A DNA stretch of 64,000 nt from Parachlorella kessleri (lineage: Eukaryota; Chlorophyta; Trebouxiophyceae; Chlorellales; Chlorellaceae): assembly GCA_001598975.1 (NCBI GenBank), contig BBXU01000136.1, positions 1 through 64,000 on the forward strand, in the 5' to 3' direction. The position numbers and the translations under genes are program-made. Of this stretch, positions 3,678 to 46,647 are shown piece by piece. The notes beneath the pieces were generated by a model, which was given only the letters and a program-made list of their open reading frames with translations, ran no database searches and was not told the DNA's origin. How positions within the stretch are numbered: the first letter of the stretch is position 1; each line of letters opens with the position of its first letter.

Positions 3678-5871
3678 CTAGCCATGCTGCCCAAGCTTGA
3701 GGTGCCCTGTGATTGCCAGCTCATCCAGTTCAGACACTTCCCCGCTGGTCAGGCGCCACCCCAGCGCCCCCGCGTTTCCCGCGGCCTGCTCGGCTGTCTT
3801 AGCCCCTGGGATGGGAACGACGCCCTTGCAGATCAGCCAGTTCAGGGCCACCTGCATGGCACTTGGATATGCAGCACCTAAGCAGGTTTTCCATGGGCGA
3901 GCGGTGTTGTGCACAGAAGGACAAAGTTGTGAGTATTGTTCACCCCGGCCTCGCTGTAATTCGCATTGCCTGCCACCTTCAACAAAGTACATATACCAAA
4001 GCATAACTGCGTAGACCCCTGTCAGCCCAGTATACCCGTACCTCCTCTCTGATTGCACTACCTGCCAACCTCAATAAATAAGGTACATATACAGTGGGCC
4101 CAGCCTGCTAGCCGATTGGCCTGGCCACCCCGACCCAAGGAGGAGGCCTCCCTGCCAGGTCCTGGGATTAGTATCTCCCAGGAGGAAGCGCTGGTGCCCA
4201 CCTGAGAGGAAGTCTTCCCACCGTGTGCTTCTCCCAACGCGCGTAGCTTGTCTACAATGGGCTGGATCTGGTCAAATGAGTAGTTACCAAAGCGTCGAGC
4301 GCCCTGCACACGCTTGGCGCATGTGGACATCACACCGTGTGAGCAAGTTCTAGTTGTTAGGTGGCACTAACACAATTCGCACCACCTGCCCCTTGAATGT
4401 TCAAGTCACATGATTGCTCAGATATTGATGTGCTTGCTAATCCTGATACCGCCGGACGTTCAGACAGCCTGCCAGCGATTGCAAGGTGCGAATCATCTCG
4501 TACCCTACTTTCTCACAAGTACCCATGATCAGCTACACAGTTTCCCTGCCGGAAATCACCTGCGGCCTGTTGATAGCGCTGTACTTGCCGGTCAGCCTGC
4601 CCATGGCCAGGGGGCTGTAGGCAACCAAGCTGACGTTTAGCTCTTGGCAGGCCGCCAGCAGGCCACTTCGCTCGGGCAGGGCATGGCAGAGGGACATCTC
4701 GACCTGCCAGGTGCAGCATACGGGGGCGCATGTCATGCACGAGGTTGTCGACCTCTGCCTGCCTGGCGGTGCTATATGATTTGACGAGCAGCGCTACTAG
4801 CCTCAGTGCCCAGAGATGAAAACAAACTCGGGCAAGATACAGAGCACTACTGTATACAGCCCTGGCAGTCCAGTCTGCCCATACCTGCCTTCCAATCCGC
4901 ATTGCCAGCCACCTCCACCAAACATAACGGGGGGTTCATGGTAGGGTGCTGCACCTGGTTGAGCACAAGAGGCACTCCTGCCTCTGCCAGGACGCGGTGT
5001 GTTTCGCGCACTTCAGCCACCGAGCAGTTGCTGACGCCCACAGCCCGCGTCAGCCCGCTCTCCACGGCTGCCACCAGGCTGGTGGCCAGGGTCTGCAAAG
5101 CACACAGGGCAGCACGGGCTCTGAGTTTCACTCAAGACAGCTATGTTGCGCTGTTCCTAGGCAGGTGGGCTCCAGTGCCGGTATGCAGGACGGCTCTCAG
5201 GGCACAGTGCAATATGAAACACCTGACAGTGACTGGGAGTACCCCCTTCCCCTCTGCCCACCTTGATTGACCGGGGCGAAGTCAGGGGGGTATGCACTAG
5301 ATACACATCCAGCTGGTCCACCCCTAACCTGTCCACAGACTGCTGCAATGCCGCCAGCATGCTACTGGGCTCTCTTATGCGCCATGGCAGCGGCATATAC
5401 TTGCTGACACCCACAGCCTTCTGCCGATTCCCAGGTGAAGCTGCCAGGCAGCGGCCGAGATAGCACTCAGACTCTCCCCAGCCGCCCAGAAGGCCAGCTC
5501 CATACGTCTGTGGTATGGACATAACATAGCATGACACAACTGATGCTGGGCAGTGAGGCGCTGTGACTACAGTACCCTAAAGACACCACTGCAGTAGGTT
5601 TAACAGGCTAATGCAAACAGGCACTGAAAAGGAGAGAGACCGAACCGCACAGCACGGAGGGAAGCGCCACCTCTGCTGTGTCAAAGAAGTTGACGTCTGC
5701 AGCCAGGGAGGCCTCGAACGCGCTGCGCATGCTGTCGTGTGTAAGAGACTTGTCAAAGGAGTTGTAGCCCCAGGTCCACCGGTCTCCCCAGCTCCAAAGT
5801 CCAACGCCCAGTGGAGAGGCTATGTGCAGTTTGCAAGAGGAGGGCCCCAGGCTGACAGGGTCCCCTTCCAT
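3678..5871 (-). CDS. Aldo/keto reductase, chloroplast At1g06690-like
   Basis: NADPH-dependent oxidoreductase of the AKR superfamily (TIM barrel); substrate not predictable. Exons in transcription order: about 5671-5871, 5262-5507, 4955-5092, 4560-4703, 4202-4303 and 3678-3851. All five introns between these exons are phase 0. The protein shows [17 protein letters not shown] (the active-site Asp/Tyr region), [30 protein letters not shown] and the cofactor-binding [12 protein letters not shown], then NAGALGWRL near the end. This combination matches the plant plastid protein At1g06690. The chosen ATG (5871) gives no transit peptide, so an additional upstream exon is possible. It is transcribed divergently from the Hv1 gene, about 290 bases away. 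Confidence 0.88.
4008..4068. repeat. Dispersed repeat copy 1
   Basis: About 60 bases (GCGTAGACCCCTGTCAGCCC onward, through CCCGTACCTCCTCTCTGAT) in the last AKR intron. They recur with few differences at about 55985-56045. Probably a fragment of a short interspersed element. Confidence 0.6.
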
Positions 5872-6160
5872 AGTGTATGTGCGTGACCCTTATTTGCAAA
5901 TAGTTGTGGCTGTACGGACACCTGTGCGAGATGGCCCGGATGCGAGGTGCAGGTAGACCTATGATATCATCGTCCACCAGTCTGGCGATCGCAGGTTCTT
6001 GAATCCATGACGCAGTGCTGAAGAGATTCAACCACGGCAGATCATCGGCTTGTCCCATGCCTTGTTCCTCCCCTCCGGCGCCCTGCGGGGGCTGCTGCGT
6101 ATACGTGTACCGACGACTTGAAAACAACACAGCAATGCACGATTACGCCAGTTACCTGAG
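5872..6160. promoter_or_regulatory. Divergent intergenic region between AKR and Hv1
   Basis: This 289-base stretch separates the two divergent start codons and must hold both 5' regions if the ATG choices are right. No clear TATA box was seen. It could also contain an unrecognised first AKR exon. Confidence 0.4.
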
Positions 6161-9040
6161 ATGGTGCTGTTGCACATCATGAGAACACTTGCCACCCGAG
6201 CGCACACGGGGTTGCCAAGGGTGCAGCAGGGCAGGCCCCTGCAAGCACTGCACTCTACTTGCCATAGTAGAACAGGCAGTGCGTCGGCTGCCTTACCTTT
6301 GCTAAGACCTGATTCAGGTTCGGTTGTGAGGAGCAGCCTTTTCGCTGCAACTCAACAGGTGTGTTAGTGACAAACACCATACCTCCCACTGGCCTGCTTT
6401 GTTACTTGCACAATACACTCAGAGACCTTTGAGGCACGGCCACAGCTCACTGAGGCAGTGTTTCCTGATACTCCTGCAGTGGCTAGTTGAGCAGCAGCAT
6501 CCACGTGTCCGCACACGAGAGCATCGTTCTAGTGTCGACCAACGCAGGGAGCTGCCACGGCAGTTTGCTTCTGCGAACTACCCTAGTGATGCGCTGGATG
6601 GATCGGTAGCAGCTATTCGGCACCCACCAGAGCCTGACGGCGCCAGCAGCAGCAGCAGCAGCAACGGTCACAGCCAGCACGGTTTAACAACCGGCCCTCA
6701 GGCCTCAGCTCGTAGCAAGCAGCAGCAGCAGTCACAGCAGAAAGGTGGGGCAGCACGTTCACAACCGCAGCATCCGCCAAGCGTCGCACACGCAGCTGTC
6801 ACCGACCAGAGCCTGGGCCAGCACAACGGGTCTAATGGGGGCCACCATGGTCATGGGGTCCCTCCTGGCGCCCCTGTGTGGAAGCTGCGGATGGGCCGCT
6901 ACCTGGAGAGCAACGAGTGCCACATGATTGTCATCAGCCTGGTGATGCTGGTGAGCCCTGGAGGCCAAGAGGTCTCAAGGAAAGGTCTCTGCTACCTTGT
7001 GTCCCTGGGATGCCGTGCGGAGTTACCACTGGGTATCCATGGTGTCATATGTATTGCCCGACTCTTAAACCAGAAAGCGTGCCTGTGCCCCTCCAGGATT
7101 TGACGATTGTGGTGACGGAGCTCATCCTGGGCAGCCTTTTTACGCATGGGCAGCCCATGCCCCATGCAGGTGCACAGTTGGCCCCTGGCTGCCGCAATGA
7201 TCCGCATGGTCTTTCCATACACCACGAACTGCATACCAGACCAGGACAAAGCTGGATTTTGACCCAAGGCGGACCAAGAACACTTCTTCTCATTATCAAT
7301 GCCAGTGATGACGGGTTTCTTGTTTGGATGCAGTCCATGTGGCGGAGGAGATCCTGTCCTGGTCTAGCATCGGCATCCTTGGCTTATTCGCCACTGAGCT
7401 TTTGGCCAAGCTCATCTGCTTTGGGTCCCAGTACTTTGCACACAGCCGATGGCACTTCTTTGACGCGGGTGAGACGGACCCTTAGCTTACAATGCGCCCT
7501 GGGCAGCCCCCTTGCACGTTGTGTGCATGGTGCATGCCAGCGCAGCATGGTATGGTTGGTGCTGGCAGCTGCTGCCTTTGGACAGGAAGCCAGAAGGAGC
7601 TCAGCGGTAAGGTGCTGGACCTGCAGTGGTGGTGACACTGTCGCTCGGCCTGGAGCTGACACTGAAGGGAGTGGCGGGCGAGGCGGCATCACTACTCATG
7701 TTCTTCAGGTGACAACAAGCTAACTTCTACCCAACGCCGTCTTAACTCCGTAAGAGCAAGGAGCACACTGCATGCAGCTTCTTGCGTGGATGAGGCCCAG
7801 TTCCAGGGGGTCGTTGTTGCAAAGGTCTCGACTGACAGCAACGACCTGGCAAATCCCGTCCAACAGAGGCGCTTCCTGCGCTTTGCCTCTCTATGCAACT
7901 GGCGGGCACCCTGCTAACCTCCTCTTTACTCGGCCCTTGCCCGCCACACACCCCACTTGCAGGCTTTGGAAGTACACCCCGGAGTTCATGCGGGTGGCGC
8001 GGCACGCCCCCGAGGTGGCTGAGGCAGCAAGGGTGGCACGGCACAGCCCTGAGCTCGTGCGGGCGCTGAGCCACATGCCCGAGGCCGCGCGCGTGCTGCG
8101 GCACTCCCCAGAGGTTGCCAGGGTCTTCAGGTGGGAATGGGTCCGTGCGTGCGCAGTGAGGAACATGCGGTCTGGGGACCGGAGCAGTGCAGGGTGCCAA
8201 GCTTGGAATTGCAGACAGGCGAGGTGTTCTTAGCTTTGCCTGGGCGATGCATGCAGAAAGCCGCCCTGCCCGGTTGCCTGGCTGGCTGGAGAGCTCTCCC
8301 AGCACGAGCCCCGTTATGTTTCTTGCAGGCATGTGCCGGAGGCGCTGCGGGTATTTCACTACATCCCCGAGTTCTTCCGCTTTGTGCGCCACACCCCCGA
8401 ACTCTTCCGCCTGTGGCGCGTGGCGCGCATAGCGCACGCCAGCGCCGAAGCCATGGCCCTGGCGACCGCCAAGGACCAGGAGGAGCAGAGGCAGCTGCTG
8501 GCCAAAGTAACACAGGCAAGCCCGAGCTATGCTGTGTTCCTTCTGACCAACAGATGGTAGTGCTGCTGCTAACTAATGCCTTTATCCTTCTACGGCTGGC
8601 TCCATCTCTTGGGTTCATCTCTTGGGTTCTTGGGCTGTCAGCGTGTAAGTACACGGGTAGCAAAACCTCCATAGCTTGCCAGTGGCCACTCTGTAACAGC
8701 CAGGGCAAGGGGCCAAGCCCCTGAGGCACCCTAGCCCATGACACACGGCGCTGTTGCTCATCACCGCGTTGCCTGCGGCTGCCTGGTGCAGGAGCTTGCC
8801 ACAGAGAAGGGTCGCCGGCTGGACTTGGAGGCGGAGGTGGTGGCGCTGCGGCAGGTGCTGACCCCAGCGCAGCAGGCGCAGGTGGCGGCTGAGCTGCTGG
8901 CAGGGCTGCCCAGCAGCAAGCCGGGGGCACACCAGGACAGGGTCTGGGAGGCGGGGCTGAGCACCGCGCAGTCCATGAGCGAAAGTGACAGTGAGAATGG
9001 GAGCTACCCTGGGGGTATTGAGGCGAAAAAGAGGCGGTAG
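6161..9040 (+). CDS. HVCN1-like: Voltage-gated proton channel (Hv1/VSOP-type) with expanded repeat-bearing S4 region
   Basis: Voltage-sensor-only H+ channel. Exons: about 6161-6358, 6480-6950, 7097-7169, 7334-7468, 7627-7708, 7963-8130, 8329-8506 (or 8515 using AG|GCAAGC) and 8792-9040. S1 carries the selectivity Asp (VMLD, codon 7097) and, seven residues on, Glu (TELIL), equivalent to human D112 and E119. S2 (LFATELLAK) keeps the F150/E153/K157 pattern, and S3 (FFDAVVV) keeps D174. S4 starts SLLMFFRLWK, then runs into about eight repeats of the type RHxPExxRV. It ends in FRLWRVARI, the canonical Hv1 S4 signature, followed by a charged coiled coil as in animal Hv1. The human Zn-site His140 position is Ser. 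The N-terminus is Ser/Gln-rich. A 5' exon (MRTLATRAH) splices in frame and may be an organelle leader, but this start is tentative. Confidence 0.85.
7963..8442 (+). repeat. Coding decapeptide tandem array in Hv1 S4 region
   Basis: Mostly 30-base units, one of 39 bases, encode ten-residue units of the form (A/L/F/V)-R-H-x-P-E-x-x-R-V. Examples: YTPEFMRV, RHAPEV, RHSPELVRA, SHMPEAARV, RHSPEVARV, RHVPEALRV, HYIPEFFRF, RHTPELFRL. The array spans two exons (7963-8130 and 8329 on). Both start with the same CAG|G phase-2 junction, so the frame is continuous across the intron. Confidence 0.9.

Positions 9041-37523: not shown

Positions 37524-46647
<9,124 letters not shown>

Follow-up and report, generated by a model that had tools for sequence, protein, structure and literature searches.

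Can the S4 segment of a voltage sensor be split by a long tandem repeat and still belong to a proton channel? The question is raised by a gene in a 64,000-nucleotide stretch of DNA from the green alga Parachlorella kessleri (assembly GCA_001598975.1, contig BBXU01000136.1, positions 1 to 64,000; the whole stretch is here called the window). The gene has seven exons on the plus strand, from 6480-6950 to 8792-9040, with GT-AG borders at every intron. Its spliced product is identical, at 451/451 residues, to residues 2-452 of P0001, the NCBI record of the P. kessleri hypothetical protein N2152v2_008972, under which name the sequence is already public. Judged by its sequence, the gene encodes an Hv1-type channel, and its S4 is interrupted by an array of eight units, most of them of ten residues. 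Both points had been proposed in an earlier reading of the DNA made without database searches (the sequence-only reading), and both held in our analysis.

An Hv1-type core in front of a divided S4

The best PDB sequence match was 5oqk, Voltage-gated hydrogen channel 1 (E value of 9.2e-9; query residues 5-121, which cover S1-S3 and the start of S4), with Nav1.7 chains nearly equal to it in score (1e-8). In Pfam, Ion_trans alone was above the cutoff, at residues 13-144 of a 317-residue query. The protein has a single voltage-sensor domain homologous to Hv1 and no pore domain, and P0006, which UniRef names Voltage-gated hydrogen channel 1, matched an array-deleted query with 53% identity over 84%. 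Alignment to 5oqk places Asp and Glu in S1, Phe, Glu, and Lys in S2, and Asp in S3 (window/5oqk pairs LD/LD, FATELLAKL/FMMEIIFKL, and FDAVVV/LDAVVV). In Hv1 channels, the S1 Asp is the selectivity filter. The S4 motif RxWRxxR reads RLWKYTP in the copy adjacent to S3, and an intact RLWRVAR lies 83 residues further on.

In searches of the whole assembly (50.9 Mb, 1642 contigs) with the array and with the sensor, the window gene was the sole Hv-type gene found. It is missing from the matches of an Ion_trans family search of the same assembly, so that search was not exhaustive.

Eight decads inside S4

After S3 the protein reads GEAASLLMFFRLWKYTPE, followed by FMRVARHAPE, VAEAARVARHSPE, LVRALSHMPE, AARVLRHSPE, VARVFRHVPE, ALRVFHYIPE, and FFRFVRHTPE, and finally by LFRLWRVARIAH and a predicted long C-terminal helix. 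With FFRLWKYTPE counted as the first, there are eight units, seven of 10 residues and one of 13, which together make 83 residues with the consensus x-x-R-x-x-R-H-x-P-E. They stand between FFRLWK and FRLWRVARIAH, so the sequence-only reading was right to note FRLW at both ends, and LFRLWRVARI follows them as a ninth unit. The 13-residue unit is the third (VAEAARVARHSPE, in exon 7963-8130), and its three extra residues are kept in P0001 and in the relatives P0002 and P0003. When that insertion was removed, identities at lags of 10, 20, and 30 residues totaled 95, against a shuffle mean of 19.0 (standard deviation, 4.0; maximum, 40); none of 100,000 shuffles attained 95, and the period is far above chance. 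Tandem Repeats Finder did not list the array at the DNA level at a score of 50 or more.

We compared 24 units, eight each from P0001, P0002, and P0003, using the last 10 residues of the 13-residue unit. Arg3, Pro9, and Glu10 are invariant (24/24). Position 6 is Arg in 17 units and Lys in 3 (R/K in 20/24), and position 7 is His in 19/24; positions 1, 2, 4, and 5 are non-polar in all 24, and position 8 is mixed. The hydrophobic moment is greatest at 108 degrees per residue (0.44-0.45, against 0.18-0.20 for the next best), which corresponds to 10 residues in three turns (3.33 per turn). At this angle, positions 1, 2, 4, 5, and 8 share a face, and R, H, P, and E occupy the opposite one. The array carries 13 to 15 Arg and one Lys against 9 Glu (R+K minus E of +5 to +7), together with 6 to 7 His.

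This pattern is under constraint. When codons were compared between units, third positions were the least alike (46% identical, versus 70% for second positions). Between P0001 and P0002, identity in the array (63/83) is close to that in S1-S3 (90/107) and higher than that in the N-terminus (40/128) and the tail (31/80). Orthologous units share a mean of 7.9/10 residues, whereas units within one protein share 5.2/10, which suggests that the units diverged before the lineages of P0001, P0002, and P0003 split.

Distribution among algal relatives

Three protein searches were made: the 317-residue query returned 5 proteins, the S1-S4 region of P0001 returned 4, and two array-deleted sequences, at E values up to 1, returned 11. 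Combined, they gave 13 different proteins. Six distinct sequences bear the array (P0001, P0002, P0003, P0010, P0013, and P0012, the last covering the first unit and the beginning of the second). P0011 bears it as well; over 85 residues it matches P0002 without a difference, after which it departs as though an intron began, and it apparently represents the locus of P0002. Since P0002 continues past this point, it is probably a spliced transcript. P0004 and P0005 span S1-S3 alone and are uninformative on the array. The homologue search that the sequence-only reading had called for thus recovered the array in several sequences; in contrast, the four Chlorella/Micractinium-type relatives found (P0006 from Chlorella ohadii, P0007 and P0009 from Micractinium, and P0008) all have a plain S4, FFRLWR(I/L)LR(V/I)MHG. 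The array is therefore probably an insertion in the Parachlorella lineage.

P0010 is one 10-residue unit shorter than P0003, between LSHTPE and the end, and arrays can therefore change by whole units. The C-terminal S4 copy keeps RxWRxxRxxH in all six sequences that cover it (P0001, P0002, P0003, P0010, P0011, and P0013). The S3-adjacent copy, which lacks this motif, reads R1, K2, P3 in the four sequences that cover it (P0001, P0002, P0003, and P0012), and its spacing from S3 agrees with that in 5oqk and in P0006-P0009.

Introns and origin of the array

Internal tandem duplication, as the sequence-only reading suggested, is the likely origin of the array. Most units keep the R-x-x-R spacing and FRLW stands at either end, as would be expected if the S4 decad FFRLWRxxRx had been copied in tandem; R3 would have become Pro before or during amplification. 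The same reading also invoked duplication of an exon, on the strength of identical intron junctions. The two array introns do have the same phase and the same AG|G; exons 4 and 5 share the ending TTCAG, exons 5 and 6 share an initial G, and the P0013 match starts exactly at the start of exon 6, as if the second intron were common. However, the junctions are not equivalent sites, because the Arg codons are split at unit positions 3 (FFR) and 6 (VFR). Exon 5 (7963-8130) has 56 codons, which is not a whole number of units, and open reading frames of relatives run through both sites (P0003), the second (P0010 and P0011), or the first (P0012). AG|G inside an AGG Arg codon is, moreover, a common site of intron gain. 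Growth by exon duplication fails on these grounds, and we consider it very improbable.

That the array is an artefact, a misread intron or an assembly error, is scarcely credible. The window offers a gene model alone, and the P. kessleri record in NCBI may not be independent of the window's assembly. However, the relatives carry the array in continuous frames with different flanks and other intron layouts, which answers the concern in the sequence-only reading that homologues might reveal a mis-spliced intron. P0002, the probable spliced transcript, also carries it, and the units of the array preserve their amino acid pattern even though they differ most at third codon positions. Transcripts that join exon 4 directly to RLWRVARI, the other outcome which that reading had envisaged, are impossible in frame, since neither of the two AG sites that precede RLWRVARI in exon 6 is in frame for such a join.

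Gene structure and surroundings

Table 1. Features of the Hv1-type gene in the window
Feature	Position	Strand	Basis
Putative start codon on a small exon of its own, ATG|GT; would encode residue 1	6161..6163	+	Sole ATG|GT in 5400-6474; inferred from P0001 (begins M-W; W codon at 6480)
Exon: low-complexity N-terminus, then S1 as far as ...ISLVML	6480..6950	+	Identical to P0001
Exon: DLTIVVTELILGSLFTHGQPMPHA, S1 Asp and Glu, S1-S2 loop	7097..7169	+	Gene model, 5oqk alignment
Exon: S2 with F/E/K (GLFATELLAKL) and start of S3, to HFFDA	7334..7468	+	Gene model, 5oqk alignment
Exon 4: remaining S3, then the N-terminal half of S4 up to ...SLLMFFR, with its final Arg codon split AG|G at unit position 3	7627..7708	+	
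Exon 5: unit 1 from LWKYTPE on, units 2-5, and unit 6 as far as VFR, with its final Arg codon split AG|G at unit position 6; length, 168 bases	7963..8130	+	
Exon 6: remaining unit 6, units 7-8, C-terminal S4 copy LFRLWRVARIAH, start of predicted long C-terminal helix	8329..8506	+	GT donor 8507
Exon: remaining C-terminal helix (predicted) and tail; stop codon 9038-9040	8792..9040	+	Model helix P0001 334-392

The end of exon 6 (8507-8520) has two possible donors: GT at 8507 agrees with P0001, and an alternative GC donor at 8516 (CAG|GCAAGC) would add three residues, VTQ. Antisense open frames lie opposite the array exons (7742-8437, minus strand, 231 codons; 8127-8930, minus strand, 267 codons) and are probably a by-product of GC-rich third codon positions. 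Elsewhere in the window, an open frame at 44928-46121 on the plus strand matches the C-terminal domain of tubulin folding cofactor D (Pfam PF12612; E value of 1.3e-16). In the assembly, 15 of the 18 Ion_trans matches listed lie on contig C1188 (about 54-82 kb, minus strand), where they may belong to a single, very large gene for a multi-domain channel or to genes clustered in tandem.

A proposed arrangement of the split S4

We give about even chances to an arrangement in which the first copy lies in the membrane and is extended into the cytosol by the array, an amphipathic stretch punctuated by prolines that links S4 to a putative coiled coil. The ancestral S4 decad FFRLWRxxRx would have been duplicated in tandem and amplified in register to eight units, R1 and R2 being mostly kept and R3 turned to Pro across the amplified units. 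The S3-joined copy (GEAASLLMFFRLWK) would complete the voltage-sensing domain, with R1 and K2 as the only near charges; we place it in the membrane because the hydrophobic half of S4 and a spacing like that of the sisters are retained. The array, about 12 nm long if a single helix and probably on the inner membrane face, would join S4 to its old C-terminal half, FRLWRVARIAH, which would now form the first turns of the coiled-coil stalk. It would probably loosen or retune the mechanical coupling of S4 to the dimerizing coiled coil. With six to seven His per subunit, it could also make that coupling sensitive to cytosolic pH. The longer S4, altered gating charge, and His ladder that the sequence-only reading put forward as possible effects are likewise plausible. 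Dimer cooperativity in known Hv1 depends on the coiled coil (PMC10377628, PMC5938591), so an 83-residue spacer should alter cooperativity.

AlphaFold models of P0001 (mean pLDDT of 58.6, pTM of 0.34, 11 sequences) and P0002 (51.2, 0.25, 6 sequences) have block means of 45-61 and 43-51 over the array. In both, the last S4 copy is continuous with the long C-terminal helix and stands at its start (P0001, 334-392, with block means of 76-92 over 351-410; P0002, 394-455, with 74-88 over 411-470). Pro is at or near a helix start in 6/8 units of the P0001 model and 8/8 of the P0002 model, both of low confidence there. In the P0001 model, S3 and the first S4 copy are merged into one helix, which is not a credible sensor, and the models therefore do not decide the topology. 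A study of coiled coils takes 3.33 residues per turn as an assumed lower limit, with 3-10 segments to accommodate it (PMC4786415). A continuous 10/3 coiled coil would suit the period, with its moment maximum at 108 degrees, but prolines and the low-confidence models break the helix. Given the regular prolines, a kinked chain of short helices appears more likely.

Several points weigh against this arrangement. Both models are of low confidence over the array and have low pTM. In the best nearby 19-mer, the first S4 copy is weakly hydrophobic (0.74, versus 1.26 and 1.19 in the sisters P0006 and P0009; last copy, 0.52-0.65). The C-terminal copy retains its Trp and the plant/protist motif, which suggests that it still does something specific. 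Finally, an isoform without exon 7963-8130 is possible, since the 168 bases can be skipped in frame to leave about 27 array residues.

In the main rival reading, it is the last copy, FRLWRVARIAH, that crosses the membrane as S4. The first FRLWK would then belong to the S3-S4 paddle, and the array would form a giant linker between S3 and S4 outside the cell or in a lumen. The conservation of RxWRxxRxxH in all six covering sequences speaks for it, as this is a plant and protist Hv motif according to PMC10377628; so do literature statements in which R2 is said to be universal and an elongated S3-S4 loop is reported for Schistosoma Hv channels. We nevertheless find it doubtful, as the first copy retains the hydrophobic N-terminal half of S4 (EAASLLMFF) and its normal distance from S3, FVRHTPE upstream of the last copy is charged, and the last copy runs into the long C-terminal helix in both models. 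By the positive-inside rule, the excess of Arg and Lys over Glu in the array would also favor the cytosol. It is unlikely, too, that proton conduction has been lost, leaving a voltage-sensor-derived membrane protein with the array and C-terminal helix as scaffold or regulator. The changes of R2 to K and R3 to P adjoining S3 would fit such a loss, and the Tree of Life review (section 16) mentions Hv-derived proteins that probably no longer conduct. However, the core residues of S1, S2, and S3 are all kept, S1-S3 is highly conserved between P0001 and P0002, and no other Hv gene was found in the assembly. In the human channel, the R1/R2 substitutions R205W, R208W, and R208Q reduce the gating charge from 6.2 to 2-3 e0 and leave proton selectivity intact (PMC11853527), and the mollusc channel AcHV3, with Pro in S4, is described as conducting, though leaky and with poor voltage sensing (PMC10377628). 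A channel with few S4 charges is therefore plausible.

It is also conceivable, though unlikely, that both FRLW copies are functional. The gating S4 would then rely on R1-K2-P3, which no natural channel with its conserved R2 had done before, and the ladder of eight decads would provide alternative registers or act as a pH-titratable mechanical spring between the sensor and the coiled coil.

Known systems and significance

P0006-P0009 have the same Asp, Phe/Glu/Lys, and Asp positions in S1-S3, the same S3-S4 spacing to FFRLW, the RxWRxxRxxH motif (in the window protein, in the C-terminal copy), and the same kind of C-terminal region. The window protein differs from them in the 83-residue array in S4 and in K at R2 and P at R3 of the S3-joined copy. 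Apolipoprotein A-I is built of amphipathic repeats in tandem, each opening with Pro, and has a period of 11/22; the array resembles it in this proline-punctuated architecture and differs in its period of 10 (3.33 per turn). No description of such an array was found in the literature searched, in agreement with the sequence-only reading, which knew of no voltage sensor of this kind. The nearest case found of an S4 extending far into the cytosol is SLC9C1, which, like HCN, has a long S4 as a coupling element; it runs some 60 A according to PMC10620092. Mollusc HV3 (AcHV3, LPWRxxR) likewise has Pro within the S4 of a channel shown to conduct, but it has one Pro and retains R2, and no array is mentioned in the portion available of its description (PMC10377628).

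Few elements of voltage sensors are as constrained as S4. An S4 split by an array that is kept in several relatives and absent from the Chlorella/Micractinium sisters found is an unusual natural remodeling of a voltage sensor. It offers a natural test of the extent of S4 that voltage sensing and proton selectivity require, including whether R2 is dispensable, and of the role of the junction between S4 and the coiled coil in gating.
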